This document shows, piece after piece, positions 3,444 through 19,684 of a DNA stretch of 32,124 nt. The notes beneath the pieces were generated by a model, which had not been told where the DNA came from, did not search any database, and saw only the letters and a list, made by a program, of their open reading frames with translations. Location of the stretch: the IMG/VR virus record IMGVR_UViG_3300028840_002437, positions 1 through 32,124 of that record, one strand, 5' to 3'. The stretch's first letter is position 1. Each line of letters starts with the position of its first letter. The stretch is from a virus. A program made the translations under genes and the position numbers.

Positions 3444-4214
3444 TTATATGATTTTATTATTATATTCTGCCCTTCCTTCAATTATTGGATGTGTCCTTCC
3501 AAAGAATATTGGCTTGCTGTCCTTGTTAATATCAAATATCACTGATACAAAACCCTGCATCCAATCAGGAGTCTTTGCTGTTGGGAAGTATTCAACATTG
3601 TTCCCAGACCTCAAGTGACCTGATTCAAACCAGCAATGGGGATGACCAGCATTGTTGATATAAGTTGAGTTGAGTCTGTGAGTGTGACCTGAAGACCCTG
3701 AATTCATTCTCTCAAGGATATTCTTCTCTGCTGCTTTCTTTGCAAGAGAGAGACCATGAATGACATCAAATGTTCCAAAGTAACTCCTTACAGGTTCAGG
3801 GTCAAAGTCAAATCCAATCTCCTTTGCACCAACCATCTCATCAAAGTTTCTTGTTCCATAATGATCCCATAAGTTCACCAACCTTTCCAACTGACTTTGA
3901 GATATTGCAAAGGGGTTGAATGCCCTCTCATCATGATTGCCTAATCTCAAGATTATTTTCTTTTTGGTTGCCTCTCTCAATGGTTTAAGGAAGTTCTCCT
4001 TGACAAGTTCAATCTCCTGCCTCTCTGAATAATCCTTCATCACACCTGATCTTATCAACCTCTGTGAGTGTCTTGACAACAACGGGAAGTCATATGTGTC
4101 ACCATTAATAACAACCTCATCAAAGTTCCCTGCCTTGACAACTCTTATAAATGCATTCACTGCATCCTTGTCCATGTAGATACCATGAACATCACTGCAT
4201 ATAATTATTTTCAT
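3444..4214 (-). CDS. Calcineurin-like metallophosphoesterase
   Basis: The 256-aa protein shows all the metal-binding motifs of the calcineurin-like phosphoesterase superfamily: D8-x-H10 (S-D-V-H-G), G38-D39 (I-N-G-D-T), G92-N-H-D95-E, H153 (V-I-H-G) and G176-H-T-H179. These bind two metal ions and hydrolyse phosphomono- or diesters. No extra domain, signal peptide or membrane segment is visible. Here it is the second gene of the leftward late operon, upstream of lysis genes, which is unusual for a replication or repair enzyme. Substrate could be a nucleotide, nucleic-acid end or signalling molecule; the sequence does not decide. The start at 4214 is 15 nt after the upstream small gene. Confidence 0.88.
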   Translation of the reverse strand: MKIIICSDVHGIYMDKDAVNAFIRVVKAGNFDEVVINGDTYDFPLLSRHSQRLIRSGVMKDYSERQEIELVKENFLKPLREATKKKIILRLGNHDERAFNPFAISQSQLERLVNLWDHYGTRNFDEMVGAKEIGFDFDPEPVRSYFGTFDVIHGLSLAKKAAEKNILERMNSGSSGHTHRLNSTYINNAGHPHCWFESGHLRSGNNVEYFPTAKTPDWMQGFVSVIFDINKDSKPIFFGRTHPIIEGRAEYNNKII

Positions 4215-4484: not shown

Positions 4485-4496
4485 TATATAGACGAC
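4485..4496 (-). promoter_or_regulatory. GTCGTCTATATA motif (copy a), leftward late promoter candidate
   Basis: An exact copy of the 12-mer GTCGTCTATATA is read on the minus strand and lies 102 nt before the first leftward late gene (start 4382). It forms the promoter-proximal end of the left 129-bp inverted repeat. The following 102-nt leader holds no obvious gene. If TATATA is the -10-like element, transcription would start near 4475-4480. Confidence 0.6.
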
Positions 4497-4613
4497 GGTG
4501 AACATTGAATGATTGGAAAGGGAGGGGGGATCAAATGATAATGGAGGAGTGCCTACATACCACAGCCCCAGAGGGACTTATACTCCAGACAGTTTTCCAT
4601 GAGGGGTCTTGAT
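4485..4613 (-). repeat. 129-bp perfect inverted repeat, left arm
   Basis: Read on the minus strand, 4613 to 4485 is identical, base for base, to 14804-14932 on the plus strand. It has no long open frame; a 15-codon frame is the longest starting at its ATG. It begins ATCAAGACCCC and ends exactly at TATATA of the promoter-like motif, so it probably carries upstream promoter or regulator-binding elements. The rest of the gene-poor stretch 4383-4865 holds the late leader (4383-4484), an AT-rich segment without visible features (4614-4723), a terminator and motif copy b. Confidence 0.93.
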
Positions 4614-4723
4614 TCTTGATTCTCGAATTGCAAATCACGAATCCATTATTATATGCAACCACATATGATATATGTCAATACACTACTATTATATGTAAAT
4701 GCATACTTGTCACTTTTCTCCTA

Positions 4724-4757
4724 TAACAAAGAAACCCCGTGCATTGCACAGGGTCTC
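4724..4757 (-). terminator. Leftward rho-independent terminator
   Basis: Read on the minus strand, bases 4757-4731 form an 11-bp stem (GAGACCCTGTG with its partner, including three G-T pairs) around a 5-nt loop, followed by a T-rich tail (TTTGTT). It would stop transcription from the lipoprotein gene (4866-5300) and from motif copy b before the 129-bp repeat. Confidence 0.65.
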
Positions 4758-4838
4758 TCACATGAAACTAAACTAAAAAACGTAAAACGAAAAACAGAAC
4801 TTTATGTCCAACCAGATAACAAATGTATAATTCTTCAC
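4724..4838 (-). ncRNA. Putative short phage RNA from motif b to terminator
   Basis: An exact GTCGTCTATATA motif at 4845-4856 points left and is followed, about 90 nt on, by the intrinsic terminator at 4724-4757. In between the only ATG opens a frame that stops after two codons, so no protein is encoded. If the motif is a promoter, it would yield an RNA of about 110 nt ending in the hairpin. The 5' end given here is a guess, placed 7 nt past TATATA. The existence of the RNA is inference. Confidence 0.35.
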
Positions 4839-4844
4839 TTCATT

Positions 4845-4856
4845 TATATAGACGAC
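4845..4856 (-). promoter_or_regulatory. GTCGTCTATATA motif (copy b), orphan
   Basis: This is an exact minus-strand copy with the CAAC prefix that it shares with copies e and f. It lies 9 nt past the stop of the lipoprotein gene. No gene follows before the terminator at 4757, so it is the only copy without an obvious protein-coding target. Confidence 0.55.
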
Positions 4857-4865
4857 GTTGAGACT

Positions 4866-5300
4866 TTAATGACTAAACAAATCATAAAGACAATCATTGT
4901 CACACTGTTTAAACCAATATGCATTAAACTCATGTGTTTCATAATCAACAATAATAATACCTGAAATTCTTGATTGATTAAATTGACCATCAAAAATCCA
5001 TCTATTGTCAGGACTTCTGAATTCAATGTTGTTTCCTTTTGCAATCACAGTGAAGAGACTTGATCTGTTGTCATAGGTGACAACAATATCATAAATATCC
5101 TCTGAACCTGTTGCATGAACATCAAACTCAAGCCTGATTGATTGTTCTTGAGAATTAATGACATCAACCTTATAAACACCCTCCTTCATTATATATGTGT
5201 GAGGTTCTTCAATCTCTTTCTCACATGATGTCAATGCTATAAATCCAAGCAATGCAATCAGCATCACTCCAATAATCTTAACTATTTTTAATGCTTTCAT
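4866..5300 (-). CDS. Phage-encoded lipoprotein
   Basis: The 144-aa product has a positively charged start, a hydrophobic core (about 6-22) and the lipobox L-T-S-C with the cysteine at 26, so it should be lipidated by signal peptidase II processing. The residues after the cysteine, E-K-E-I-E-E, are acidic, as in the export signals that place Bacteroidota lipoproteins on the cell surface. The rest is beta-rich with no known family. I chose ATG 5298-5300; an upstream ATG at 5342 would put the promoter-like motif c inside the coding sequence. It is a lone leftward gene with its own motif and terminator. A superinfection-exclusion or surface-changing role is plausible but is inference. Confidence 0.75.
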   Translation of the reverse strand: MKALKIVKIIGVMLIALLGFIALTSCEKEIEEPHTYIMKEGVYKVDVINSQEQSIRLEFDVHATGSEDIYDIVVTYDNRSSLFTVIAKGNNIEFRSPDNRWIFDGQFNQSRISGIIIVDYETHEFNAYWFKQCDNDCLYDLFSH

Positions 5301-5324
5301 AATACTTTGTGTTTTTTGTTCACT

Positions 5325-5336
5325 TATAAAGACGAC
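5325..5336 (-). promoter_or_regulatory. GTCGTCTTTATA motif variant (copy c) before lipoprotein gene
   Basis: This minus-strand site matches the motif at 11 of 12 positions and lies 24 nt upstream of the lipoprotein start at 5300. Its position and direction agree with a promoter. It is the reason for rejecting the longer reading frame that starts at 5342. Confidence 0.5.
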
Positions 5337-5356
5337 ATTCACATCTTAATTCAATA

Positions 5357-5712
5357 TTTAGGGAAGGAGGGAACATCAAGTTCCCTAAAATACCCTATTT
5401 AGGGAAGGTAAAAAGCACACCAAGTTCCCTACTTTTTTGTATTATATCAAGAGAGAACACCCATATATAGGGGTTTATTTTGTACTTTACAAGTTTAGGG
5501 AAGGAAGGGAAGCAAAATTCTTCCTATTATATATATATTTCGATGGTAAGTAAGTAAAGTATAAAAAATTATATCATATAGAAGATTTTACGTTCCCTAT
5601 GTTCCCCAAAGTGCTTATACTTACAGGAATCAATGTTTTCACCTCAATTTTAGGGAAGGAGGAGGGAAGGAGAACCCTATTTTAGGGAAGGAGAACCCTG
5701 TTTTAGGGAAGG
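5357..5712 (+). repeat. TTTAGGGAAGG repeat cluster (candidate origin or operators)
   Basis: Six direct copies of TTTAGGGAAGG begin at 5357, 5398, 5494, 5649, 5681 and 5702. Inverted partial copies (TTCCCTAAA at 5381, TTCCCTA at 5425) make hairpins with the first two. The last copies are spaced about 21 nt apart and share an AGGAGAA-type extension. The 586-nt stretch 5301-5886 has no convincing gene. Repeats of this kind between divergent units act as replication iterons or as operators; the sequence alone does not decide which. Confidence 0.6.
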
Positions 5713-5838
5713 AGAAAAGATGCAACACCGTTGCAAGTGTCCGAAAGTGGGACTCAACTGTCTCAAAAATGGACACCACTTTGCACCCTGTTATATATAA
5801 ATGTTCCAAATTTGCCGTTTTGTGTACATTTGGAATTC

Positions 5839-5864
5839 TGGCATGGTGTTTGCTGTATATATGG
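5839..5864 (+). promoter_or_regulatory. Early promoter-like element TGGCATG...GCTGTATATAT (first copy)
   Basis: TGGCATG, a short gap, then TTGCTGTATATAT is found here and again at 6918-6943, in both cases 20-25 nt before an early gene start. The TATATATGG/TATATATTG end is only loosely like the Bacteroides -7 box (TAnnTTTG). It is probably an early promoter read by the host polymerase. Confidence 0.45.
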
Positions 5865-5886
5865 CATGAACGAAACAAACAAGAAA

Positions 5887-6114
5887 ATGAAAAACAGAAA
5901 TTACACAATCAAGAGAGTCTATACAGGAGCATATGACTTTACATTAAAGGATGGGAGGAAGTTTAATGCAGAGAATTGCAGGACTTGTGGTATATCAAGA
6001 GTCAATGAGTGGATTTTGAGAGAAGGTCATATTATGGACTGTGAGACAGGTGACACATACTGTGGTCACTATGACACACTTGAGGAGATTAAAGAAACAC
6101 TTTGTAACCTTTAG
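5887..6114 (+). CDS. Hypothetical 75-aa early protein
   Basis: I chose ATG 5887 because its leader (acaaacaagaaaATGAAAAAC) is nearly the same as that of the next gene at 6163; an in-frame ATG at 5866 is inside the promoter-like element. The protein is soluble, with a lysine/arginine-rich start and five cysteines or histidine clusters (C-R-T-C-G near residue 32, D-C-E and Y-C-G-H further on) that could bind a metal. It has no known family. It is the first gene of the rightward early region, directly downstream of the TTTAGGGAAGG cluster, a place where takeover or regulatory proteins are common. Its stop codon lies in the hairpin element 6104-6133. Confidence 0.6.
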   Translation: MKNRNYTIKRVYTGAYDFTLKDGRKFNAENCRTCGISRVNEWILREGHIMDCETGDTYCGHYDTLEEIKETLCNL

Positions 6115-6133
6115 TGGTTACCTTTCGTATATA
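6104..6133 (+). promoter_or_regulatory. Early regulatory element with GTAACC/GGTTAC hairpin (first copy)
   Basis: A perfect 6-bp inverted repeat (GTAACC 6104-6109, GGTTAC 6116-6121) is followed by CTTTCGTATATA. The core GGTTACCTTTCGTATATA is repeated exactly at 12991-13008. Both copies contain the stop codon of the gene before them and lie 30-38 nt before a new gene, so they look like duplicated early promoters or operators. Confidence 0.5.
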
Positions 6134-6162
6134 AAGAGTATATATAATAAACAAACAAGAAA

Positions 6163-6912
6163 ATGAAAAACGGACAGCAACATATTATTGGATTTGGAGG
6201 ACAGTTCTGGACTCATTGGACTTCATACACTTGGGAAGAATACAGAGCAGATGGGACATCCTTTCAGAGGACAAGTCACACATATTTAAGGAACCTTTCT
6301 CACACACTTGAGGAGGCAGAAGAGGAAATGAAAAGGAGGGGAATTACTGATTATATTATTGATGAGGATTTAAGGGGAGAAAAGTGGACAACTCCAGATT
6401 ATGAGAGAGAGCAGATTGCACCTCATTTATTTTCAATTGGAGAACTGACAAATCAACCAATAATGGAGTCAGACAACTTGAAGTATTTATTTGGTGCATA
6501 TTTCAATGACAGTAATGCAAGAAGGAGAGTGTATGCAAGGAGGAGATTGATTAAACTTGGAGAACTGATCAAGCACCCTCACACTGATGATAATATCAAA
6601 AGGACATATATGTCAACAAAGAGATATAATGCAATTATTGAAAGGGCTGGCAGAAAGCATGGATATTTTTATGAAGATGGTGAAAGAATAGAAATCAAAC
6701 TCAAGGAGGTTGGATCATTCCACTTTGAAACTGTTTACGGTTTCATGTATATAGTGACATACCTTGATGAGACTGACAGAGTATTTAAATATAAGGGGAG
6801 CAATCCTCCTGACATAAGTCTTGATGAGTTTGTTTTGATCAAAGGAACCGTCAAGCATTCAGAATATAAAGGTAAGCAGGACACAATGTTACAAAGAATC
6901 AAAACACTATAA
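6163..6912 (+). CDS. Early protein with C-terminal KGTVK OB-like module
   Basis: The 249-aa protein has an N-terminal aromatic-rich part (1-60), an arginine-rich helical middle (about 105-165, with a R-R-R-V-Y-A-R-R-R-L segment) and a C-terminal beta module (about 185-248) containing D-E-F-V-L-I-K-G-T-V-K-H-S-E-Y-K-G ... T-M-L-Q-R-I-K. That K-G-T-V-K-x-H-x-x-Y-x-G ... T-x-L-x-R pattern recurs at the ends of many phage and plasmid DNA-metabolism proteins and looks like a small OB fold; I know no proven function. It has the same A-rich leader as the gene before it and lies behind the 6104-6133 element. Confidence 0.65.
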   Translation: MKNGQQHIIGFGGQFWTHWTSYTWEEYRADGTSFQRTSHTYLRNLSHTLEEAEEEMKRRGITDYIIDEDLRGEKWTTPDYEREQIAPHLFSIGELTNQPIMESDNLKYLFGAYFNDSNARRRVYARRRLIKLGELIKHPHTDDNIKRTYMSTKRYNAIIERAGRKHGYFYEDGERIEIKLKEVGSFHFETVYGFMYIVTYLDETDRVFKYKGSNPPDISLDEFVLIKGTVKHSEYKGKQDTMLQRIKTL

Positions 6913-6917
6913 ATAAT

Positions 6918-6943
6918 TGGCATGATTATTGCTGTATATATTG
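6918..6943 (+). promoter_or_regulatory. Early promoter-like element TGGCATG...GCTGTATATAT (second copy)
   Basis: This is the second copy of the element at 5839-5864. It starts 6 nt after the stop of the 249-aa gene and ends 22 nt before the start at 6966. The match covers TGGCATG and, 5-6 nt later, TTGCTGTATATAT. Confidence 0.45.
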
Positions 6944-6965
6944 AAAACACTTTAAATAATAAGAT

Positions 6966-7457
6966 ATGAAAACAAAAAAGAACGGACAAAGGGCATTCAA
7001 CAGTCACGACTATGACAAGTATGACTTTCCTGCAAGACAAGCACTCTGGAGTTATATCAGTGGTCTTGGTGACAACTGGACTCTATTATCAATGGAGGAG
7101 GAGTTCTGTGAACCTGACCTGAAGGTCACATGTGGCAATATGCCAATTAATTTTGAAATAGAGGTAAGGAGATGTTTTGACACTTACAAAAAACAGTTAT
7201 ATCATAGTGATCAAGATGCAACCATCACCATCCCTCACAGGAAGTTCCTGAACGGGACACTGAGAAAGACTGACTATTATATTGTAATGAATGAGTCATT
7301 TTCTGAGGCTATTATCATACCAAAGAGAGTCTTCAGGAATTATACATTCAATTTAACAGAGTCGGACTTTGGAGGAAGACTAAAGAAACCAGAACAATTC
7401 ATGAACATTCCAATGTCTGAGTTGTCATATATTGATAATCATATAAAGTTAAAGTAA
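6966..7457 (+). CDS. Hypothetical 163-aa protein, possible PD-(D/E)xK-like fold
   Basis: The protein is soluble. The segment from about 44 to 70 has E-P-D-L-K-V, a short gap, then I-N-F-E-I-E-V-R-R, which resembles the D ... (D/E)-x-(K/E) beta-hairpin core of restriction-endonuclease-like proteins. The order and spacing fit only loosely, and the usual final lysine is not clear, so I do not assign a nuclease function. A later conserved-looking part (about 93-125) has a strand-like T-D-Y-Y-I-V-M-N and a P-K-R-V-F segment, reminiscent of the substrate-side strands of such folds. It has its own promoter-like element and touches the next gene (stop/start at 7457). Confidence 0.6.
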   Translation: MKTKKNGQRAFNSHDYDKYDFPARQALWSYISGLGDNWTLLSMEEEFCEPDLKVTCGNMPINFEIEVRRCFDTYKKQLYHSDQDATITIPHRKFLNGTLRKTDYYIVMNESFSEAIIIPKRVFRNYTFNLTESDFGGRLKKPEQFMNIPMSELSYIDNHIKLK

Positions 7458-7909
7458 TGAAAAGAACAAAGAAACAAGCAGAAGAGTTGAAGTCCAACTT
7501 TTATGAATACCTGAACACTGGAAGTGACAGGATATTCACAAACAAAATTTATCCAGACCTTGTCAGCATCTTCAATGATGCAACAATGTATAAATACAAT
7601 CTAACACATGAAACCCTTGAAGACATCAGACAAGAGGCACTCATTAAGGTTGTGACAAAGGTCACTGTTGAGGCACTTGACAGGGTCAAGAATATTGACA
7701 ACTATCTCTTCAGGATGTTTGACAATTACACAAAGGATTATATCAAGGTGTCAGGAAGATATAAAAAGCATGTCAACAGGGTTGTTGATGGCTATATCAA
7801 GACAGGCAAGGAGTGGAACTCTGGACTCAGTTACAATGAGAATGAATTCCCTCAGTCACCTCATATAATACAGGGAGCAAGCAACCATAAACCTCAGAAG
7901 GATGACTGA
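7457..7909 (+). CDS. Sigma-70 region-2-like protein
   Basis: The 150-aa protein contains a segment that reads like sigma region 2 of small (ECF-type) sigma factors: T-L-E-D-I-R-Q-E-A-L-I-K-V-V (about 53-66, compare the E-D-x-x-Q-E motif of region 2.2) and, after a short loop, N-I-D-N-Y-L-F-R-M-F-D-N-Y-T-K-D-Y-I-K (about 79-97, compare the W-L-x-x-I-A-x-N-x-x-x-D-x-x-R motif of regions 2.3-2.4), then a basic helix. No region 4 follows; the last 40 residues are polar. It may bind core RNA polymerase or -10 DNA and could serve the GTCGTCTATATA sites, but this is inference. The ATG overlaps the stop of the previous gene and the last 8 nt overlap the HNH gene. Confidence 0.5.
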   Translation: MKRTKKQAEELKSNFYEYLNTGSDRIFTNKIYPDLVSIFNDATMYKYNLTHETLEDIRQEALIKVVTKVTVEALDRVKNIDNYLFRMFDNYTKDYIKVSGRYKKHVNRVVDGYIKTGKEWNSGLSYNENEFPQSPHIIQGASNHKPQKDD

Positions 7910-8231
7910 TGGACTCTGGTGGATTAAGGCAGAGAGTAAAGAACTGGAGAGGTTCAGGAGGGCTGTTTATAATTCAAAGGCATGGAAGAATGCAAGAGCA
8001 TATGTCCTTGCATCAAATCCATTTTGTGTCCACTGTGAAAGGGACAAGGGAATCTTGACAAGGGCTGTTGATGTTGACCACATTATCAATCTTGCAGAGA
8101 TCAAGAAGACAGGAAACACAGCACTTGCATTTAGCATTGAGAACCTTCAGGGATTATGCAAGAGTTGTCACAGCAAAAAATCATATAATGAATCATTAAA
8201 TAAAAACAACAATGAAAAGGAGAAAGATTAA
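7902..8231 (+). CDS. HNH endonuclease
   Basis: The 109-aa protein is a compact HNH nuclease. It has the first zinc pair C42-x-x-C45, the catalytic D59-H60 in V-D-V-D-H-I, N81 in I-E-N-L-Q and the second zinc pair C86-x-x-C89 followed by H90. The enzyme nicks or cuts DNA with one metal ion. In HK97-like phages, HNH proteins beside terminase assist packaging cleavage; here it lies in the early region, 6 kb from the terminase, so a role in host-DNA degradation or recombination is equally possible. It overlaps both neighbours (8 nt upstream, 20 nt downstream), which implies coupled translation. Confidence 0.88.
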   Translation: MTDGLWWIKAESKELERFRRAVYNSKAWKNARAYVLASNPFCVHCERDKGILTRAVDVDHIINLAEIKKTGNTALAFSIENLQGLCKSCHSKKSYNESLNKNNNEKEKD

Positions 8232-8499
8232 CAAGAACATTGCACCAGACACAGCAAAGAATATCATTATTGATGATCTGAAGGGAGTGTTTTCAATGGT
8301 GTGTATTGAGAAGGGACTTGTTCCCGTATTTGACTGCATCCCAAAGGGAACATGTGAGGAGACAATTATCTTTGCAACATGTCCAGAGTTTGTCGATGAG
8401 TTTAGCTGTCGTCTATACAGTAGAGAGGCAAAGTTGTCTCAATATCTGGTTTACATAGATGATAAACGTGAATTTTATAAAGACTTTCAAACCATATAA
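8212..8499 (+). CDS. Hypothetical 95-aa early protein
   Basis: The protein starts with a strongly basic stretch (M-K-R-R-K-I-N-K-N) and is otherwise mixed alpha/beta with three to four cysteines; I do not recognise a family. The start overlaps the end of the HNH gene by 20 nt in another frame, which is long but occurs elsewhere in this genome. A one-mismatch copy of the GTCGTCTATATA motif lies inside its coding sequence (8408-8419), where it is read as part of C-R-L-Y-S. It ends 1 nt before the next gene. Confidence 0.6.
   Translation: MKRRKINKNIAPDTAKNIIIDDLKGVFSMVCIEKGLVPVFDCIPKGTCEETIIFATCPEFVDEFSCRLYSREAKLSQYLVYIDDKREFYKDFQTI
8408..8419 (+). promoter_or_regulatory. GTCGTCTATACA, one-mismatch motif copy inside a gene
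   Basis: This plus-strand site matches the late motif at 11 of 12 positions and lies 81 nt before the membrane-protein gene at 8501. It might be a weak internal promoter or might be chance within a coding region. Confidence 0.3.
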
Positions 8500-8500
8500 A

Positions 8501-8761
8501 ATGAATACAGAATTTAAAGAGAAACTCAAGGAACTTGAGGAGGAACAGTCCAAGGGATATGTCCTCACAGTAATTTTAATCTATTATGTATTGATGGCAA
8601 TAGTTTATGCCGTAATATTTTGCACAGTCACAGCAGGTCTGATGCTTGTATTTAACAGTGTCATTGCTGTCATCTTTGCACTTCCGTTTATAACATTTGT
8701 TCAATCTGCTTATGTTGTCGGATTTGTTGCCCTTATTAAATATTTTAAAAACTTAATTTAA
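8501..8761 (+). CDS. Small two-helix membrane protein
   Basis: I chose ATG 8501, one base after the previous stop, rather than the in-frame ATG 8459 inside the upstream gene. The 86-aa protein has a charged start rich in E and K (about 3-18), then two membrane helices (about 20-45 and 48-75) joined by a short turn, with a K-Y-F-K-N end. No family is recognised. Together with the next gene, which has one membrane helix, it forms a small membrane pair expressed early, just before the primase-helicase gene. A role at the host membrane, for example exclusion or replication anchoring, is a guess. Confidence 0.6.
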   Translation: MNTEFKEKLKELEEEQSKGYVLTVILIYYVLMAIVYAVIFCTVTAGLMLVFNSVIAVIFALPFITFVQSAYVVGFVALIKYFKNLI

Positions 8762-8770
8762 CAACGTCTT

Positions 8771-9136
8771 ATGGAACTTTGGTTTGTATTATTAATTGCA
8801 GTGTCTCTCGGTTTATTAGTAGTGTCAATTGTGACAATACCATTTATTAATGATGAAAATGATGAACTTAGAAGAGAGAAAGAGAGGATCATCAGAATAA
8901 TTGATGAGGAACTCGAAAAAAGGAGAATTAGCTTTCATGATGACTTCAGGGGTATTATTGAAAACAAGAAACCAAATGAAGTCAAAGCAAGAGTAAAACC
9001 TGTATGTAAGTGGTGTGGAGAACCTGCAACACATATGGAATACAGAACTTCAGGCAATGTTGTGAGCAGGAACCCTGAATGTGATGAATGCTCGGCACTC
9101 AACACAACATATCTGAGGATCAAACATGACAAGTAA
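8771..9136 (+). CDS. Membrane-anchored zinc-finger protein
   Basis: The 121-aa protein has one N-terminal membrane helix (about 3-25), a charged coiled-coil-like segment (about 28-52, rich in E and R) and a C-terminal treble-clef-like zinc site: C79-x-x-C82 (C-K-W-C-G) and C104-x-x-C107 (C-D-E-C). The C-terminal half resembles short zinc-binding domains of HNH-type or ribbon proteins, but no catalytic histidine pair is present. It is 10 nt downstream of the two-helix membrane protein. I do not know a function. Confidence 0.6.
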   Translation: MELWFVLLIAVSLGLLVVSIVTIPFINDENDELRREKERIIRIIDEELEKRRISFHDDFRGIIENKKPNEVKARVKPVCKWCGEPATHMEYRTSGNVVSRNPECDECSALNTTYLRIKHDK

Positions 9137-9142
9137 AACACA

Positions 9143-9169
9143 GGGAGGAGAATTGAAACACCTCCTCCC
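9143..9169 (+). other. Strong RNA hairpin before primase gene
   Basis: GGGAGGAG (9143-9150) and CTCCTCCC (9162-9169) form a perfect 8-bp stem with an 11-nt loop, 15 nt before the primase-helicase start. There is no T-run, so it is not a standard terminator. It may protect the mRNA end or adjust translation of the primase. Confidence 0.5.
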
Positions 9170-9184
9170 ATTAAACAGATAACA

Positions 9185-11293
9185 ATGAAAGAAATATCAT
9201 TATTTGACAATATAAAGAAGACCACACACCCAACAAAATTAACAGTTGACACGTTTATCAAGTATGTCAAGGAAGGAAAGTGGAGAGATGAGGTTGAGTC
9301 TGTTAGGGAGAAACTAAAGACAGCAACAAACAAGGATGAGAGAGGGAGAGCAAAGTCATCCCTTCCTAATGCAACAATGTCAGGTTACTTTGAGAAGAGG
9401 GGTGCAAAGAATCTTGTCAAGCACTCTGGATATATATTAATTGACATTGATGACATACAAGACAGCATTGACTCTGTGTTCAAACAGCTTAAAAAAGACC
9501 CTTACTCTTATGCAATATTCAAGAGTGTCTCTGGAAATGGACTTGGAGTTGTGGTCAAGATTGACCCTGACAAACATGAGGAGGCATTCAAAGCACTTGA
9601 GGCATATTACTCATTCAGGTATTATATTGAAGTTGACACAGCATGCAAAGACGTGTCAAGGACAAGATATGTCTCATATGACCCTGACACATATATTAAC
9701 AAGAAAGCAGAGGAGTTCAGACAATATATTCCAGACAAGGAGGAAACCAAATCATTTGACAAGGTTGACAATGCCTCACTTTCAGGAGAGGTTCAGAGGG
9801 CTGTTGACTATGTACTTGAGAAGGATATTGATATCACTGACAATTATACTAAGTGGCTGACAGTTGCACTGTCACTGTCCTCAAGTCTCGGTGAAGATGG
9901 GAGAGAGTTCTTCCATCAGTTCTCCTCACTTAACTCTGAGTATGATGAGAAGGTTGCTGATCTAAAATATGACAATTGCTTGCAGACAGGAAATGGTTCT
10001 GTGACAATTGGTTCTCTCTTTCACCTCCTCAGTGAGGTTGGGTTCCAAGTTGATCCCTCAATAAACGGGAAGGGGAACGGAATCAAGAAGGTGATTGACT
10101 ATCTCAACCAGACATATGATATAAGATACAATGAAATAAGCAATGTAATTGAGTGCAGATTGAAGGAGACAGATGATTCATATGAACCAATTAATATTGA
10201 TGATATATATGTCAAACTCAAGCTAAAAAACTATAAAGTCACACTCATTGACCTCAAATCTGTTGTCAGAAGTGAAGAGGTCATCCAAAAATACAATCCA
10301 GTTAGGGAATATTTTGAGGGTCTTGATTGGAATGATGGCAACAACATCGAAGAACTTGCAGCACACTTCAAGACAGATGACAATGAAAGATTCCTGACAC
10401 AGTTAAGAAAGATGCTTGTCAGATCAATTGCATGTGCATTAGAACCAGACACATTCAATAAACATTGCTTAGTCCTCCACTCAACAGGTCAGAATGTTGG
10501 GAAAACTTCATTCTGGAGGTGGCTGTGTCCAGCAGAGTTCAGGCAGAGATATTATTTTGAGGGTCACCTTGATCCTCAGTCCAAAGACTCAATTATGTAC
10601 TTGGGTTCAAGTTTCTTTATTAATCTTGATGAACTTGCCTCAATTGGTAAGGCTGGAATCAATCACCTGAAAGCAATGTTGACTGCAAATGGAACAATGA
10701 TAAGGTTACCCTTCCAGCCTCAGCCACAGTGGATTCAAAGAATTGCAACCTTTGTTGGTTCAACCAATGATGATGACTTCCTCATTGATATAAACAATGT
10801 GAGATGGGTTGTTATTAGGGTTGATGACATTGATTTTGACTACTCTGAATTAGATGTCAATCAAATTTGGGCAGAGGCATATGAAGAGTATAAATGTGGA
10901 TTTGATTACACGTTGAGCAGGGAGGAGATTGAGCAGAATGAAACCATTGCAGATGAGTTTAAGTCCATAAGCACTGAACAAGAACTTATAATGAAGTACT
11001 TTGAAATATCGAGCAAGGAGGATGGTGGAGTGTTTGTCCAGAATGCAGACATTGCATCAATGCTCCAAGACCTTAACCCATCAATCAGGGTTAATATAAA
11101 ATACATTGCAAGTGAGATGAAAAAAGCAAAGTTCTTTAAGTACAAGACCAAGGGAAAATGGGGATATTGGGTGAAGTTCACCGATGATTACAGGGAGGAC
11201 TATGAAAACAGAATTGGTTCAAGGGCATTGCAATTTGAAAAGGAGGCAGGTGTCTCAGAAAATAAGTCAATAAAAATAAACTCACCATTTTAA
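9185..11293 (+). CDS. Primase-helicase (BT4734-N / VirE type)
   Basis: The 702-aa protein joins two parts. The N-terminal part (about 20-180) looks like the BT4734-N/primase-like domain, with a Y-I-L-I-D-I-D-D-I acidic strand (D87, D89), S-G-N-G-L near 116-120 and C-K-D-V-S-R-T-R-Y near 154-162. A linker with a PriCT-like helical segment follows (about 200-290). The C-terminal part (about 370-560) is a VirE/D5-like superfamily 3 helicase with Walker A G435-Q-N-V-G-K-T441, Walker B F-F-I-N-L-D-E-L (477-484), and sensor/arginine residues near 524-540 (G-S-T-N-D-D-D-F-L; N-V-R-W). It should prime and unwind phage DNA at the origin. It is the only replication enzyme visible; the polymerase must come from the host. 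Confidence 0.85.
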   Translation: MKEISLFDNIKKTTHPTKLTVDTFIKYVKEGKWRDEVESVREKLKTATNKDERGRAKSSLPNATMSGYFEKRGAKNLVKHSGYILIDIDDIQDSIDSVFKQLKKDPYSYAIFKSVSGNGLGVVVKIDPDKHEEAFKALEAYYSFRYYIEVDTACKDVSRTRYVSYDPDTYINKKAEEFRQYIPDKEETKSFDKVDNASLSGEVQRAVDYVLEKDIDITDNYTKWLTVALSLSSSLGEDGREFFHQFSSLNSEYDEKVADLKYDNCLQTGNGSVTIGSLFHLLSEVGFQVDPSINGKGNGIKKVIDYLNQTYDIRYNEISNVIECRLKETDDSYEPINIDDIYVKLKLKNYKVTLIDLKSVVRSEEVIQKYNPVREYFEGLDWNDGNNIEELAAHFKTDDNERFLTQLRKMLVRSIACALEPDTFNKHCLVLHSTGQNVGKTSFWRWLCPAEFRQRYYFEGHLDPQSKDSIMYLGSSFFINLDELASIGKAGINHLKAMLTANGTMIRLPFQPQPQWIQRIATFVGSTNDDDFLIDINNVRWVVIRVDDIDFDYSELDVNQIWAEAYEEYKCGFDYTLSREEIEQNETIADEFKSISTEQELIMKYFEISSKEDGGVFVQNADIASMLQDLNPSIRVNIKYIASEMKKAKFFKYKTKGKWGYWVKFTDDYREDYENRIGSRALQFEKEAGVSENKSIKINSPF

Positions 11294-11304
11294 AATACAA
11301 GGAT

Positions 11305-11514
11305 ATGAATACTATATTTAAGAAATATCCCAAGGAATTTTGGGATGATCCAGACATCAGACCGTTAATTGATAGGGAATATTATATCTATTGCAAGTAT
11401 ATTCTTGACATGTCCACATCATGCCACAAGGCAGAGGGTGCATCACATGGAATGAAGAAACTATCTATTGAAATAAGAAAACTCATCAAACAAAAACAGA
11501 AGGAAAATGAATAA
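11305..11514 (+). CDS. Hypothetical 69-aa early protein
   Basis: A small soluble protein with an aromatic first half (F-K-K-Y-P-K-E-F-W-D-D-P, E-Y-Y-I-Y-C-K-Y) and a basic helical C-terminal half ending in K-Q-K-Q-K-E-N-E. No family is recognised. It is 12 nt after the primase-helicase and overlaps the RecB-like nuclease start by 8 nt, so it may be a small partner or regulator of these DNA enzymes. That is inference from position. Confidence 0.6.
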   Translation: MNTIFKKYPKEFWDDPDIRPLIDREYYIYCKYILDMSTSCHKAEGASHGMKKLSIEIRKLIKQKQKENE

Positions 11515-12298
11515 GATACTATTGAACAAAAAGGCTGAACGTGTCCAGATCAGAGACACAAGATACTACACAGCAGACCATGACAAGTTCTTCCCATCGG
11601 TGACAACCGTCTTAAAGATGTGGAGTCCAGAACCACACCTCATTGAGTGGTTTAAGAATAATGGAAGAAACTCTGATATTCTTGTCAGGGAGGCTGGAGA
11701 GAGGGGAACAATTGTTCACAATGCAATTGAAGACCTCGTGAAGGGTGTTAAGTTGAATTATGAGGACATAAACAGACTTGACTGTTGGGAGATGATTGTT
11801 AAGTTCTCTCAGTTTATGGAGGCATATAAACCAACTGTTCAGGCAATTGAAGTCCAAATGGTTGACACTGGACTTGGTGTTGGTGGAACCCTTGACATGA
11901 TATGCACAATTGACGGTGTTGTGTGGCTGATAGACTTTAAGACATCAAACTATTTGTCAGACGTTATGAACATACAACTTGCAGTCTACAAAGAGATGTG
12001 GCAGAATGCATCAGGGATGAAAGTTGATGAGACAGGAATCCTGCACCTCAATGCAAAGACGAGGGGTGTCGTCTATAAAAGTAGGAAGGTTGAAGGAAAG
12101 ACAGTCAAAGAGGTTGACCGTTCAAAGATGCAGGGAAAGGGTTGGCAGGTTGTGCAACCAAAACTGTCACACACAGAACTCATGAAAGATTGGGATAACT
12201 TAAAATCTATTTATGACAGGAGACACCCAACACCTAAACCAGCAGACAGGGAGTTTCCAATGTATATTGAATTAAATAAAGACTCAATATTGAGTTAA
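11507..12298 (+). CDS. PD-(D/E)xK exonuclease, RecB/Cas4-like
   Basis: The 263-aa protein shows the ordered motifs of the RecB-like nuclease family: E65-R-G-T-I-V-H71 with a helix after it, E115 in A-I-E-V-Q, G127-T-L-D130, I-D143-F-K145-T-S and Q157-L-A-V-Y161 with the Q-x-x-x-Y spacing. D130, D143 and K145 should hold the metal-binding centre. No four-cysteine iron-sulfur cluster of the Cas4/AddB kind is visible. The enzyme most likely degrades or resects DNA during replication-linked recombination. It overlaps the preceding small gene by 8 nt and is followed 25 nt later by an SSB-like gene, a common replication-recombination grouping. Confidence 0.82.
   Translation: MNKILLNKKAERVQIRDTRYYTADHDKFFPSVTTVLKMWSPEPHLIEWFKNNGRNSDILVREAGERGTIVHNAIEDLVKGVKLNYEDINRLDCWEMIVKFSQFMEAYKPTVQAIEVQMVDTGLGVGGTLDMICTIDGVVWLIDFKTSNYLSDVMNIQLAVYKEMWQNASGMKVDETGILHLNAKTRGVVYKSRKVEGKTVKEVDRSKMQGKGWQVVQPKLSHTELMKDWDNLKSIYDRRHPTPKPADREFPMYIELNKDSILS
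12068..12079 (+). promoter_or_regulatory. GTCGTCTATAAA, one-mismatch motif copy inside a gene
   Basis: This plus-strand site inside the RecB-like gene matches 11 of 12 motif positions. The next gene starts 244 nt further on. It could be a weak internal promoter for the 12324-12548 gene or chance. Confidence 0.25.
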
Positions 12299-12323
12299 TT
12301 GTATAACGTAAATTTAAAGTATT

Positions 12324-12548
12324 ATGGTAATTGTAGGAAGTATTAATTTGAGCAAGATCGACAAGAACAGATTGTTTGTATCTGAGAAAACTGGTGACAA
12401 GTTTCTTGACGTGGTTATTATTGAGACACCAAACTCAGAGTATAATGACTATATGATTGTTGAATCAATCTCCAAAGAGGAGAGAGATGCAGGAAAGAAG
12501 GGAACTGTTGTTGGAAATGCAAAGAATGCAAGCACTGAACCATTTTAA
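12324..12548 (+). CDS. Small OB/SSB-like early protein
   Basis: The 74-aa protein has the pattern of a compact beta protein: an N-terminal I-x-G-S-I-N-L-S-K-I-D strand-turn, a D-V-V-I-I-E-T middle strand, S-K-E-E-R-D-A-G-K-K-G near the end, and the C-terminal tip T-E-P-F. Similar short proteins, often with an acidic-P-F end like that of single-strand DNA-binding proteins, are common near replication genes of Bacteroidota phages; the N-terminal G-S-I-N-L-S-K-I-D pattern is the one I recall. I infer a single-strand DNA or replisome-binding role. It is the last gene before the 12569-12604 terminator. Confidence 0.5.
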   Translation: MVIVGSINLSKIDKNRLFVSEKTGDKFLDVVIIETPNSEYNDYMIVESISKEERDAGKKGTVVGNAKNASTEPF

Positions 12549-12568
12549 TAATAGTCAGTGAGACTTTG

Positions 12569-12604
12569 AAGGGGTGGTTTTAGATCACCCCTTTATTTTT
12601 TTTT
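12569..12604 (+). terminator. Rho-independent terminator after the SSB-like gene
   Basis: AAGGGGTG (12569-12576) pairs with CACCCCTT (12586-12593) around a 9-nt loop, followed by TATTTTTTTTT. It is one of the clearest terminators of the window and closes the first early transcription unit. Confidence 0.9.
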
Positions 12605-12680
12605 CATTTTTTTAGCCTTGGAATTAGGATTTGTCATTTATTATGACCATCTTAGTACCATGATAAACGATAAAAAAGAC

Positions 12681-12989
12681 ATGAAAAACACACAAAACAC
12701 TGACAATCAGACACTTAGAGTTGGACAAAGGTTTCATTATACAGGTGATATGGCAAACCTTTCAACATTTGGAACAATTACAAAGGTAAGAGAGGACAAA
12801 GGATTTGGAATTTCTTATGATGTTATGTATGACGAACACAGATTTGAAGGTGACACACTCATTGGAGTTGTTGAACACAGGAGTTTCATTTGTGGTGGAG
12901 TTGGACAAAGATTCTTCACTCTGGAGGCATGGAAAGAAGTCCAAAGGAAAGCAAGAGAAAACTTTGCAAAGAAATTTGGCAACCTTTAA
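12681..12989 (+). CDS. Hypothetical 102-aa early protein
   Basis: The beta-rich protein has several Gly-rich turns (V-G-Q-R-F-H-Y-T-G-D, F-G-T-I-T-K-V, G-F-G-I-S-Y-D-V) and looks like a small SH3-like or barrel domain with repeated V-G-Q-R-F segments at the start and end. No family is recognised. Two further in-frame ATGs upstream (12618, 12660) exist; I prefer 12681 because it is nearest the A-rich ATGAAAAAC leader used by other early genes. It follows the 12569-12604 terminator, so it needs a promoter in 12605-12680. Its stop lies in the 12981-13008 regulatory element. Confidence 0.6.
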   Translation: MKNTQNTDNQTLRVGQRFHYTGDMANLSTFGTITKVREDKGFGISYDVMYDEHRFEGDTLIGVVEHRSFICGGVGQRFFTLEAWKEVQRKARENFAKKFGNL

Positions 12990-13008
12990 TGGTTACCTTT
13001 CGTATATA
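12981..13008 (+). promoter_or_regulatory. Early regulatory element (second copy)
   Basis: AACCTTTAATGGTT is followed by ACCTTTCGTATATA, the second copy of the element at 6104-6133. Here the inverted repeat is AACC/GGTT. It spans the stop codon of the gene before it and lies 37 nt before the winged-helix gene at 13046. Confidence 0.5.
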
Positions 13009-13045
13009 TAAAGTATAAACATTAAACAAACTAAAAAACAAGATT

Positions 13046-13714
13046 ATGAAAACTATTAAATTGACAAACTCAGAAAGACACATGTTAGCAACACTTATTC
13101 CAATGCTCTATGCAGAGGCTGGATATTCAGACGTATCCTTCAATGAATTGTATGATGAATTACACAAAGATTATAAACTTAAAGGTGTTAATTATTGGAA
13201 GGGTGTTCTCGGTTCACTTTGTAACAAGGGAGTCCTTCACGTTATTGAAGGTCGAGACATGGGAATCACTGATGACATTATTTACCTTCATTCTGATTAT
13301 TATGGACTGCACAAAAGCTGGAGAGAAGAGGTCGAGTGTGAAGAGGTTGAAGTCATTGCAGTTGGAAATGAACCAAGACCAGAAGATCAGCCAAAGAAAA
13401 CAGCAATCCAAAAAATGAAGACAGGAACACTTGCAAAGAAAGCAAAGGAAATGCTTGACCAGTTTATTGATAATAAGGTCATTGAAGAGGACACAAATGA
13501 AACACTCAAAGCAATTGCAGATGATTTTATCTCTCTGGTTTCTGACTATATGTTTGTTGATAATCTTGAGGAGGATAACAACAGATTCAACTATAAAGAC
13601 ATGGATGAGAGAGTTGAGACTGAACACTTTTATGATGACGTATGTGACAGGCAGAGGATGAGAATGATTGAGAAGTTAAGCACATTAAGGAGAACATTCA
13701 GGAGATCAAAATAA
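13046..13714 (+). CDS. Winged-helix-like early protein
   Basis: The 222-aa protein has an N-terminal domain (about 1-85) with the pattern L-T-N-S-E-R-H-M-L ... A-G-Y-S-D-V-S-F-N-E-L ... W-K-G-V-L-G-S-L-C-N-K-G-V-L, which fits a winged helix-turn-helix: helices followed by a recognition-helix-like segment and a wing strand. Such domains bind DNA or core proteins, and close relatives occur in Bacteroidota phages. The C-terminal part (about 115-222) is helical, rich in K, E and R, with an R-R-T-F-R-R-S-K tail. It may act as a regulator of the early or late switch. It starts a second early unit behind the 12981-13008 element. Confidence 0.6.
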   Translation: MKTIKLTNSERHMLATLIPMLYAEAGYSDVSFNELYDELHKDYKLKGVNYWKGVLGSLCNKGVLHVIEGRDMGITDDIIYLHSDYYGLHKSWREEVECEEVEVIAVGNEPRPEDQPKKTAIQKMKTGTLAKKAKEMLDQFIDNKVIEEDTNETLKAIADDFISLVSDYMFVDNLEEDNNRFNYKDMDERVETEHFYDDVCDRQRMRMIEKLSTLRRTFRRSK

Positions 13715-13890
13715 TGAGAAAGAATTCAAACTGGTGGCAGGATGCATTTGATGCATCCTTTCACCAACTCTCACCAGAGGAGCAGAAGAAAGGAAAAGAA
13801 GAACTTGAGTCAAAGAAGTACTCAGGACACACAGAGAACTTATATGTATTATCAAGAAGACTTAAAAAATTAGCAAATGAAGACTATTAA
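13714..13890 (+). CDS. Hypothetical 58-aa protein
   Basis: A short frame from ATG 13714, overlapping the previous stop as TAATG, to TAA 13888-13890, overlapping the DUF3310 gene by 14 nt. The product is hydrophilic with an N-terminal N-W-W-Q-D-A-F-D-A segment and a basic helical end (V-L-S-R-R-L-K-K-L). No family is recognised. The double overlap and the similar codon use make it probable that the frame is translated. Confidence 0.55.
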   Translation: MRKNSNWWQDAFDASFHQLSPEEQKKGKEELESKKYSGHTENLYVLSRRLKKLANEDY

Positions 13891-14191
13891 GAGAACACAG
13901 ATTGGTGGTGACCATTACAAAGATATGAAGATACAACCATTAGAATTTATCCATGCAAACAATATCCCGTTCATTGAAGGTGCTGTTATTAAGTATGTAT
14001 GCAGACACAGGGACAAGAACGGTGTTGAGGATATTCAGAAAGCAATTCACTTCCTTGAGATGCTGATTAACCTTGAGTATGTTGAAGACCTCTGTGACCT
14101 CTCAAGAACCTCTGAGGAGGCAGATGAACAGAGGGTCTGTGATGAGTATGGATTTATGAAGGGCAAGGATATTGGAGACTTTCACCCATAA
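13877..14191 (+). CDS. DUF3310 protein
   Basis: The 104-aa protein carries the DUF3310 signature: Q-I-G-G-D-H-Y near the start, P-L-E-F-I-H-A-N-N, I-K-Y-V-C-R-H-R-D-K-N-G and D-I-Q-K-A-I-H-F-L-E-M-L-I. This small family is common in phages of many hosts and is sometimes labelled nucleotide-kinase-like from its link to T7-type proteins; an activity is not established. The C-terminal 35 residues are acidic and specific to this protein. It overlaps the gene before it by 14 nt and the tiny lipoprotein gene after it as TAATG. Confidence 0.88.
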   Translation: MKTIKRTQIGGDHYKDMKIQPLEFIHANNIPFIEGAVIKYVCRHRDKNGVEDIQKAIHFLEMLINLEYVEDLCDLSRTSEEADEQRVCDEYGFMKGKDIGDFHP

Positions 14192-14337
14192 TGGAAAAGG
14201 ATATGAAAAGACTGTTGATAATATTGGGAGTAATTTTATTAACCATTACTGCACTGAGTTTCTCAGGTTGCTCAGAGGAGATTCCAGAACCTGAACCAGA
14301 GAAGAAAGTTTATCACCCTTTAGAAAAACATCCCTAA
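14191..14337 (+). CDS. Tiny lipoprotein (48 aa)
   Basis: The frame runs from ATG 14191 to TAA 14335-14337. The peptide has a charged start (M-E-K-D-M-K-R), a hydrophobic stretch (about 8-22) and a lipobox F-S-G-C with the cysteine at 27. The mature part is only 22 aa, acidic and proline-rich (S-E-E-I-P-E-P-E-P-E). This is the build of Rz1-like outer-membrane spanins, and the acidic residues next to the cysteine also fit the surface-export signal of Bacteroidota lipoproteins. It lies in the early region, away from the lysis genes, so an exclusion or envelope-stress role is also possible. Start and stop overlap both neighbours (TAATG each time). Confidence 0.55.
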   Translation: MEKDMKRLLIILGVILLTITALSFSGCSEEIPEPEPEKKVYHPLEKHP

Positions 14338-14507
14338 TGAGATACACAGTAACAGTCACAATCAAAGGTGACCCAATTCCAAAAGTCTTCTTTGATGCTG
14401 TTGACACATTCAAACATAAAAAGAAATTTTATATAACATTTGGACAGCAGGGAAAATATGAGTCATTTGAACTGCACATGATCCAAAAAATAACTGAAAC
14501 ATTTTAA
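14337..14507 (+). CDS. Hypothetical 56-aa protein
   Basis: The frame from ATG 14337 (overlapping the lipoprotein TAA) to TAA 14505-14507 encodes a small, lysine-rich beta-like protein (T-V-T-V-T-I-K-G-D-P, then V-F-F-D-A-V, F-Y-I-T-F-G-Q). No family is recognised. It is placed between the tiny lipoprotein and the gene whose end resembles a tail protein. Confidence 0.5.
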   Translation: MRYTVTVTIKGDPIPKVFFDAVDTFKHKKKFYITFGQQGKYESFELHMIQKITETF

Positions 14508-14517
14508 ACATAAGATT

Positions 14518-14721
14518 ATGGAACACTATCAAGAAATTTATGAGTCATTGCATGAGAAAGGATATAATCTCAAGCACCTGACAGACAAGATCACAGTCAG
14601 CAAGGCAGAATTGATTGACCTGATTGATCATCATGTCCAAAAATTAAGAAATATTGAGTTAAAAAAGGAGACCATTGATGTCACAGCCTTAGGCTCTGAC
14701 CGTTGGAAGAAATTCCTTTAA
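14518..14721 (+). CDS. Small early protein with a tail-tube-like C-terminus
   Basis: The 67-aa protein has an N-terminal helical part (1-46) with no known family. The last 21 residues, beginning I-E-L-K-K-E-T-I-D-V-T and ending W-K-K-F-L, are nearly the same as part of the tail-tube-type proteins at 22762 and 23187 (K-E-T-I-D-V-T ... S-D-G-W-K-E-F-L). At DNA level 55 of 63 bases match the 23187 gene. The similarity ends at the stop codon. It looks like a fragment copied from the tail gene and fused to an early gene, just before the terminator that ends the early region. Confidence 0.55.
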   Translation: MEHYQEIYESLHEKGYNLKHLTDKITVSKAELIDLIDHHVQKLRNIELKKETIDVTALGSDRWKKFL

Positions 14722-14741
14722 ACCATAAGCAGTTCAAAGAG

Positions 14742-14775
14742 GGGAGTTCCAAAGGGTTGAGGCTCCCTTTTTTTT
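14742..14775 (+). terminator. Terminator of the early region
   Basis: GGGAG (14742-14746) pairs with CTCCC (14763-14767), followed by eight T. The loop is 16 nt, so the stem is only moderate, but it is the right place: after the last early gene and before the late promoter region. Confidence 0.65.
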
Positions 14776-14778
14776 ATA

Positions 14779-14811
14779 CCCATCAAGAACCCATCAAGAA
14801 CCCATCAAGAC
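14779..14811. repeat. Three 11-bp tandem repeats beside the right inverted-repeat arm
   Basis: Three copies of CCCATCAAGAA (the last ends in C) run directly into the right 129-bp arm. The left arm has two shorter ATCAAGA copies at the matching border. This could be a binding site for a regulator or a slippage product. Confidence 0.7.
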
Positions 14812-14932
14812 CCCTCATGGAAAACTGTCTGGAGTATAAGTCCCTCTGGGGCTGTGGTATGTAGGCACTCCTCCATTATCATTTGATCCCCCCTCCCTTT
14901 CCAATCATTCAATGTTCACCGTCGTCTATATA
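14804..14932 (+). repeat. 129-bp perfect inverted repeat, right arm
   Basis: This is the plus-strand copy of the sequence at 4485-4613 (minus). It begins ATCAAGACCCC and ends with the GTCGTCTATATA motif (14921-14932), 21 nt before the small-terminase start. It has no gene. Both arms point outward from the early region toward the two late operons, so identical upstream control of both late units is the simplest reading. Confidence 0.93.
14921..14932 (+). promoter_or_regulatory. GTCGTCTATATA motif (copy d), rightward late promoter candidate
   Basis: This exact copy closes the right inverted-repeat arm. The small-terminase start (14954) follows after 21 nt. It would drive the packaging, head and tail genes. 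Confidence 0.6.
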
Positions 14933-14953
14933 GATAAGGAACATGATAAAAAT

Positions 14954-15310
14954 ATGGACAGATACAAGAAGAAAATGAAAGAAATAAAGGACTTCCTAAA
15001 GAGTAAGGGAGTGCTTGAGGATGTTGATACAACCTTGATTGATGAACTTGTGTTCAATCTCAGGTTATCAGACACAGCAAAGAAGGAAGTCTTTCCAGAT
15101 GGACAGGAGCCTGTCATCACTGTGAACATAAGAGAGATTGACAAGCAACCATACTATGTTGCAAACCCTGCAATAAAGATATATAATGAGGCACTCAAAA
15201 CAATCCGTTCAATATCAATCTCACTTGGATTGACACCAGCAGATAGAAAGAAACTTGGACTGCAAGACAAGAAAGAGGAGGAGGATGCACTTGACAAAAT
15301 TCTGAGTTAA
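14954..15310 (+). CDS. Terminase small subunit, P27 family
   Basis: I chose ATG 14954 (118 aa). A frame from 14912 also exists, but it would read through the promoter-like motif. The N-terminal half is basic and helical, as expected for DNA recognition. The C-terminal part contains N-P-A-I-K-I-Y-N-E-A-L-K-T-I-R and S-L-G-L-T-P-A-D-R-K-K-L-G, the conserved end of P27-type small terminase subunits. It should bind the packaging site on phage DNA and load it into the large subunit. It is the first gene of the rightward late operon. Confidence 0.82.
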   Translation: MDRYKKKMKEIKDFLKSKGVLEDVDTTLIDELVFNLRLSDTAKKEVFPDGQEPVITVNIREIDKQPYYVANPAIKIYNEALKTIRSISISLGLTPADRKKLGLQDKKEEEDALDKILS

Positions 15311-15320
15311 TCACATACAC

Positions 15321-15677
15321 ATGGTTGAGAGTATTAAGACAACACAAAGACTGTTCAGTCTTAATCAGTTATATAGTGGAGGACACTGGTCAAAGAGGCA
15401 CAAACTTAAACAGCACTGGAACAGGATATTTCTGACATACATCCTTGCAGAGATGAAGGGATATAAGTATGACACATTTGAGATACATGTAAGATACAAG
15501 GGATATCTTGATGTTGACAATGTCTCAGCAGCAGTCAAAATGTTCATTGATGCTATGAAAGACTCAAAGAAGATCACTGATGATTCACCAACATACTTCA
15601 AAAAACTCACAATAAAATATGATAGTACATTAAAGAAGAATGAAACAATATTCACAATAAGAGATTATGACCCCTGA
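15321..15677 (+). CDS. RusA-like Holliday junction resolvase
   Basis: The 118-aa protein resembles RusA: an early N-Q-L-Y ... W-x-x-R segment, a strand F-E-I-H-V-R-Y, then D64-V-D66-N67-V-S-A-A-V-K, D77 in F-I-D-A-M and D87-D88 in I-T-D-D-S-P. The D-x-D-N motif and the later D-D pair are the metal ligands of this family. The enzyme would cut Holliday junctions, and in a late operon it may trim branched DNA before packaging. It is sandwiched between the two terminase subunits and overlaps the large-subunit gene by 11 nt. Confidence 0.75.
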   Translation: MVESIKTTQRLFSLNQLYSGGHWSKRHKLKQHWNRIFLTYILAEMKGYKYDTFEIHVRYKGYLDVDNVSAAVKMFIDAMKDSKKITDDSPTYFKKLTIKYDSTLKKNETIFTIRDYDP

Positions 15678-17382: not shown

Positions 17383-17409
17383 TAAAGAACTTATCATAAA
17401 TTTTAACAA

Positions 17410-19661: not shown

Positions 19662-19672
19662 GAAGGTGCAAC

Positions 19673-19684
19673 GTCGTCTATATA
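19673..19684 (+). promoter_or_regulatory. GTCGTCTATATA motif (copy f) before the capsid gene
   Basis: An exact copy with the CAAC prefix lies in the 71-nt gap between the protease stop and the capsid start (19733), 48 nt before the ATG. A separate promoter for the most abundant virion protein is expected. Confidence 0.6.

Follow-up and report, generated by a model that had tools for sequence, protein, structure and literature searches.

A putative late promoter embedded in a perfect 129-bp inverted repeat of a small tailed phage

Results

The inverted repeat and its surroundings

The virus record IMGVR_UViG_3300028840_002437 of the IMG/VR database is the nearly closed genome of a tailed phage; all of its 32,124 bases were analysed (the window), and a perfect inverted repeat of 129 base pairs (bp) stands in it at the heads of two oppositely read late gene units. 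The first 373 bases of the window (1-373) recur at 31738-32124, and the genome is therefore circular or circularly permuted with a length of ~31.74 kb. This overlap is inexact, with a 14-nucleotide (nt) tandem unit and a divergent patch of ~100 bp, a mismatch that is probably strain variation at the point where the circle was cut. Genes for terminase, portal, major head protein and tail lie on the right side, where the late unit runs from terS through a RusA-like gene to terL and onward; amidase and holin-like genes lie on the left side and are read leftward. Between the two late units are genes for HNH, VapE/PriCT-2 primase-helicase, PD-(D/E)XK nuclease and DUF3310 proteins.

1785-2213: holin-like gene of the left late unit
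2405-2812: amidase gene of the left late unit
3444-4214, minus strand: metallophosphoesterase, near the head of the left late unit
4485-4613, minus strand: left arm, identical to 14804-14932 at 129 of 129 positions; outward upstream region of the left late unit
9185-11293, plus strand: primase-helicase (VapE-like, PriCT-2), which marks the inner region as replication/early
14736-14773, plus strand: hairpin resembling an intrinsic terminator, at the close of the early gene run and immediately inside the right arm
14782-14814, plus strand: ATCAAGA-containing units, three of them along the right arm's inner edge against two at the left arm; they mark where the duplication stops on the inner side
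14804-14932, plus strand: right arm, with the same identity; outward upstream region of the right late unit
14954-15310, plus strand: terminase small subunit (terS; PF05119, 8.3e-13), first gene of the right late unit

An earlier note on this DNA had reported the repeat, and we find it exactly as described: positions 4613-4485 of the minus strand equal 14804-14932 of the plus strand at every base. Neither arm contains a clear gene, as the note had also held, since there is no open reading frame (ORF) of 60 amino acids (aa) in either of them; an in-frame upstream extension of TerS (ATG 14912) begins within the right arm. Each arm ends exactly at the 12-mer GTCGTCTATATA and is oriented outward. 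The last base shared by the arms is the last base of this motif, and the very next base already differs. On the inner side identity resumes only in the form of the ATCAAGA units, across a gap of 4 nt (out of step by 4 nt). The arms are separated by 10,190 bp and have a guanine-plus-cytosine (GC) content of 46.5%, compared with 38% for the window. The assumption that they flank the early region holds insofar as the repeat bounds the inner block; the block is, however, not purely early, because late-type motifs occur at its left end, where a leftward lipoprotein-like gene follows a one-mismatch copy of the motif and a further exact copy is present.

The longest distant exact inverted repeats in 20 order-1 Markov genomes of the window's length measured 14-17 nt. 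Among 146 loci, after removal of six pieces of the window and of any locus with runs of N (1,294,420 bases), the longest perfect inverted repeat had 45 nt, and among 25 further loci, including three whole named Bacteroidota phages, it had 21 nt; most of these control loci are fragments. The phages phi46:1 and FPSV-S1 (from primase-helicase matches) and phi39:1 (from capsid matches) are without such a repeat and differ in gene order. Neither strand of the arm folds better than its shuffles (z-scores +1.06 and +2.52), and the window has no Rfam match at gathering thresholds. Within the arms, 4535-4612 (plus strand) and its mirror in the right arm hold identical ORFs of 25 codons that are read toward the early region and follow a purine-rich AAGGGAGGGGGG leader.

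The contig L001, from another IMG/VR sample, corresponds to 14810-22564 at 100% identity and begins 6 nt inside the right arm. The right arm is therefore supported by a second assembly: 123 nt of it, joined to terS, were observed twice (window and L001), and the left arm was observed in the window alone. The start of L001 within the arm hints that the assembly met a repeat there, but chance alone can also end a contig. How the inner region is oriented in the window can be no surer than the read pairs that span 129 bp.

The motif at the outer ends of the arms

The window contains six exact copies of GTCGTCTATATA and one copy with a single mismatch at 5325. With up to two mismatches the motif occurs 11 times, against 0.82 occurrences expected. 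The six exact sites and the site at 5325 stand out in a weight-matrix scan of the window, the exact ones ranking high by construction as the matrix was built on them and on two sites of a relative (L002, see below); the other one-mismatch sites, 8408 and 12068, lie inside predicted genes and have lower scores. At six of the seven sites an ORF of at least 50 aa starts 14-102 nt downstream on the same strand, and the genes concerned are terS, the portal and capsid genes, a 50-aa gene at the front of the left unit, the lipoprotein-like gene and the gene of a 51-aa membrane-like protein.

4485-4496, minus strand: GTCGTCTATATA, putative late promoter core of the left late unit; ATG of the 50-aa ORF 102 nt downstream
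4845-4856, minus strand: GTCGTCTATATA with no ORF of 35 aa behind it; a possible small RNA follows
4866-5300, minus strand: 144-aa protein with a lipoprotein-like N-terminus (ALTSCEKE), no family above cut-off
5325-5336, minus strand: GTCGTCTTTATA, the one-mismatch site, ahead of the lipoprotein-like gene
14921-14932, plus strand: GTCGTCTATATA, putative late promoter core ahead of terS; ATG 14954 at 21 nt downstream
17370-17381, plus strand: GTCGTCTATATA ahead of the portal gene, where it overlaps the final codons of terL; L002 has it unchanged at 1247
19673-19684, plus strand: GTCGTCTATATA ahead of the major capsid gene; unchanged in L002 at 3545 and in L172 at 1437
30867-30878, minus strand: GTCGTCTATATA (AAAGGAGG) ahead of a small leftward gene (30697-30852), ATG 14 nt past the motif; end of the late region

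The portal site shows that not every copy is intergenic. Four other exact sites are without the 117 bases that precede the motif in the arms, and the arm is therefore not required for every promoter of this kind. The four bases just 5' of the 12-mer are CAAC or CACC at five of the six exact sites in the window, the site at 30867 being the exception (GATT), and CAGT at both sites in L002; CACC is private to the two arms and common to both. Upstream bases that are alike within a genome and different between genomes are as expected for promoters that evolve together with their reader.

Two of the sites have surroundings worth recording. Downstream of the site at 4845, positions 4720-4838 (minus strand) may specify an RNA of 119 nt that ends in a 14-bp hairpin with a T-rich tail (fold z-score -2.74; one of 200 shuffles was as stable). 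The gene at 30697-30852 (minus strand) encodes a hydrophobic 51-aa protein behind a strong ribosome site, with only a weak match to the YonT toxin family (E-value 0.034).

Conservation of the motif in relatives

The sole diverged close relatives that we found are L002 (5,693 bases, 74% identical in blastn) and L172, which is 99% identical to L002 (L133, obtained from a motif scan, is the same contig as L172); neither extends to an arm. L002 keeps the 12-mer exactly ahead of both portal and capsid genes, and L172 keeps it ahead of the capsid gene. An automatic alignment had placed a gap in the capsid copy of L002, which on direct reading is intact. Between the window and L002, 1332 of 5622 aligned bases differ, as do 51 of 122, 60 of 121 and 50 of 133 fourfold-degenerate sites (38-50%), and 13 of the 40 bases that precede the portal site. 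Conservation is uneven: the intergenic stretch 20966-21050 differs at just 10 of 74 aligned bases. As far as this alignment goes, the 12-mer is what selection demonstrably keeps. We infer that GTCGTCTATATA is very probably a late promoter, because the 12-mer is unchanged in relatives of only ~74% identity.

A scan of viral contigs with an exact 29-mer of the arm found L001 alone, and the ten phage records that blastn returned for 14730-15000 are at chance level (E-values 0.3-0.9). Metallophosphoesterase and primase-helicase searches for arm-carrying relatives returned no relative. Among the best 80 of 315 TerL matches in viral contigs, L001 and L002 are close and the others reach at most 37% identity; all 22 TerL matches in genome contigs are at or below 34%. 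The capsid alignment for relatives comprised L001, L002 and L172. Motif scans of viral contigs matched 27 and 36 stretches; at least two exact motifs were present only in L001 and L002 besides the pieces of the window, among the loci compared, and the remaining single matches look like chance.

The named phages that best match the primase-helicase are Cellulophaga and Flavobacterium phages at a distant 24-33% identity, and Cellulophaga phi39:1 is among the matches of the capsid search. These distant matches make a host among the Bacteroidota likely.

A candidate late sigma factor

7457-7909, plus strand: candidate phage sigma factor, 150 aa, region 2 only, within the run of early genes read rightward

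One stretch of this protein, corresponding to region 2, matches models of extracytoplasmic function (ECF) sigma factors (TIGR02937, 4.4e-5; TIGR02985, 9.8e-5; NF058625, 1.4e-4; PRK09415, 4.3e-4). The match to TIGR02937 covers profile positions 9-70 of 165 and scores 23.2 bits, the cut-off for membership being 42.9, and Pfam Sigma70_r2 gave 0.0054, which is below its cut-off. One reversed and three shuffled copies of the sequence had no sigma match; one shuffle gave an unrelated match of 0.045. The best PHROGs matches (E-values 0.058-0.06) are to families of unknown function, with no match to gp55, and searches of viral contigs and phage records found no true relative. The contig L113, considered as a relative, proved to be GTP cyclohydrolase and was a false lead. 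With its weak resemblance to ECF region 2, the protein is a candidate late sigma factor. Restriction to region 2 would fit a promoter without a -35 element, by analogy with gp55 of phage T4.

Other features of the early region

The last early gene (14518-14721, plus strand) encodes an N-terminus that weakly resembles repressors or helix-turn-helix proteins (phrog_769, E-value 0.0088) and C-terminal residues in common with a tail-type protein. At the DNA level, 69 nt of this gene (14650-14718), which adjoins the right arm, are 88% identical to 23280-23348 in a tail-type gene. The tail-type genes 22762-23169 and 23187-23825 are tandem paralogues. Ahead of two early genes lie copies of 63 nt (6101-6163 and 12976-13038, plus strand) that are 84% identical and contain AACCTTTARTGGTTACCTTTCGTATATA. 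They form a second promoter-like family, possibly an early promoter with an operator-like dyad. The long stretch 5343-6100 is without a convincing gene and has repeated TTTTAGGGAAGGAG plus inverted forms; it is a candidate origin or control region.

Discussion

We propose that the two arms are copies of one late-promoter region, identical through recent copying or through homogenisation by recombination and not through a need for every base, and we consider this the probable explanation without being confident of it. The motif GTCGTCTATATA at the outer end would form the promoter core, of an extended -10 type and with no -35 element to be recognised, and each late unit would have its own copy of this promoter, supplied by one arm, at its head. 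That each arm holds the promoter region of a late unit, in keeping with the earlier note's view that one upstream control region serves both, is well supported by the position and orientation of the motif, by the gene content and by the conservation of the motif in L002 and L172. The likely reader would be the host RNA polymerase together with the phage's own sigma-region-2-like protein, made early.

One arm would have been copied recently onto the other, or both would have been homogenised repeatedly by recombination. Template switching or gene conversion may have been responsible, with the shared promoter and the ATCAAGA repeats as the limits at the two ends, and either arm could be the donor. 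Zero differences in 129 positions place the divergence of the arms below 2.3% at 95%, a small fraction of the fourfold-site distance to L002, and this points either to a young copy or to homogenised arms. At each edge is a short sequence that occurs on both sides, the pattern that template switching would give, or conversion confined by local homology. The 69-nt copy shared by the last early gene and a tail-type gene is another internal copy in this genome and also speaks for copying. The earlier note had left a choice between gene conversion and strong constraint, and of these the evidence favours conversion (or copying); since the relative keeps only the 12-mer and the flanks of the motif have diverged, the remaining 117 bases are unlikely to be all under constraint.

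Several observations weigh against this proposal. No diverged relative with an arm was found among the contigs and phages searched, which bears on both recency and concerted change. That the block ends exactly at the motif could mean an unrecognised function of the whole arm, and the different number of units at the inner edge indicates some change since copying. As to the reader, all sigma-model matches of the candidate are under the curated cut-offs, a search of PDB sequences gave only SigW at an E-value of 0.16 beside chance matches, and a single-sequence structure model was poor and unusable (mean predicted local distance difference test score, pLDDT, of 45).

Alternatively, recombination between the arms may invert the inner 10.2 kb again and again, so that the genome exists as two isomers, the arms stay identical and both late units are expressed in either orientation. 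We regard this as possible but rather unlikely. It would be in agreement with perfect inverted arms on a circular map whose ends overlap, with outward promoters that stay with their late units after a flip, with the PD-(D/E)XK nuclease and the RusA-like resolvase encoded by the phage, and with the break of L001 inside the right arm, as assemblies can break at an unresolved repeat. Such a break is, however, also possible at any repeat or by chance (a post hoc calculation gives ~1.6% for either of two ends in either arm), the alternative junction appeared in no contig, and the ORFs scanned included no recognisable single-strand annealing protein. Equally tentative is the picture of a flip-flop genome, in which continual inversion of the 10-kb early/replication region would hold the late promoters identical by concerted evolution, as a phage counterpart of the inverted repeats by which herpesvirus or plastid genomes isomerise. 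Among the ORFs scanned there was no match to an integrase or invertase; two uncharacterised proteins, of 330 and 291 aa, might yet be of this kind. A transposon with terminal inverted repeats would call for a transposase, of which these ORFs gave no match, and the bases outside the arms form no direct repeat.

If the 129 bp were instead a single control element, with sites for activators or repressors, whose whole length the two leading late promoters required, its place at the head of both units, its end exactly at the promoter and its raised GC content would be accounted for. The four exact sites without the upstream bases and the invariance of only the 12-mer in L002 argue otherwise, and identity at every base exceeds what regulatory constraint usually keeps and would be exceptional; we judge this improbable. 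A packaging or replication site is very improbable. The gap before terS is the usual place of cos or pac sites, and the right arm lies in this gap, so that the arm might contain a cos, a pac or an origin of which a second, inverted copy arose; but an inverted second cos would split the genome in two, and the arm has no secondary structure beyond chance on either strand. We judge just as improbable an assembly artefact, in which a chimeric fold-back join made the left arm. The left arm is indeed present in one assembly only; the right arm, however, is in two, the window ends overlap like a circle, and the left junction runs into an ORF behind a plausible leader. The arms may finally be the scar of one past inversion or fold-back, by a staggered break and fill-in, the extra copy having no present function beyond its promoter. 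Inverted duplicates bound a single block here, and staggered breaks leave inverted duplicates at inversions in Drosophila (PMC4965816), which we count for this explanation. No relative with the ancestral order was found, however, and that the block stops at the promoter would have to be a coincidence; we consider such a scar quite unlikely.

Our proposal of a copied late-promoter region has parallels in known systems. The gp55 protein of T4 is a minimal sigma factor without region 4, and T4 late promoters lack a -35 element. The T4 late promoter is TATAAATA at -13 to -6 and is read with gp55 (PMC1524935). As in T4 late transcription, a conserved -10-type motif stands here ahead of several late genes on the same strand. 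Unlike in T4, the motif is a different one, the phage's own sigma factor is a candidate that was only weakly detected, the phage is small and probably of Bacteroidota, and two of the promoters are embedded in a 129-bp inverted repeat. A clamp or co-activator of the gp33/gp45 type had no match among 30 ORFs compared with PHROGs and 20 compared with Pfam.

In the phages Mu (G) and P1 (C), short tail-fibre segments are inverted by a dedicated invertase. The present case resembles them in having a phage DNA segment between inverted repeats, but the segment here comprises the entire early region, and we recognised no invertase. In the invertible promoters of Bacteroides, the promoter lies inside a segment of 183-186 bp between 10-bp repeats and is switched (PMC8375218). 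Promoters are tied to inverted repeats in Bacteroidota there as here; in our phage, by contrast, they sit in the arms and would not be switched.

The literature searched, from which most subscription papers were outside, contained no described late promoter carried in inverted repeats around a phage early region and showed no equivalent of the pair proposed here. Should the early region flip, assemblies of this kind would show it in an arbitrary orientation. If our proposal is true, the repeat would be a clear, testable case of concerted promoter evolution within one phage genome, and it would add a candidate pair of late promoter and minimal sigma factor for small uncultured phages, probably of Bacteroidota.

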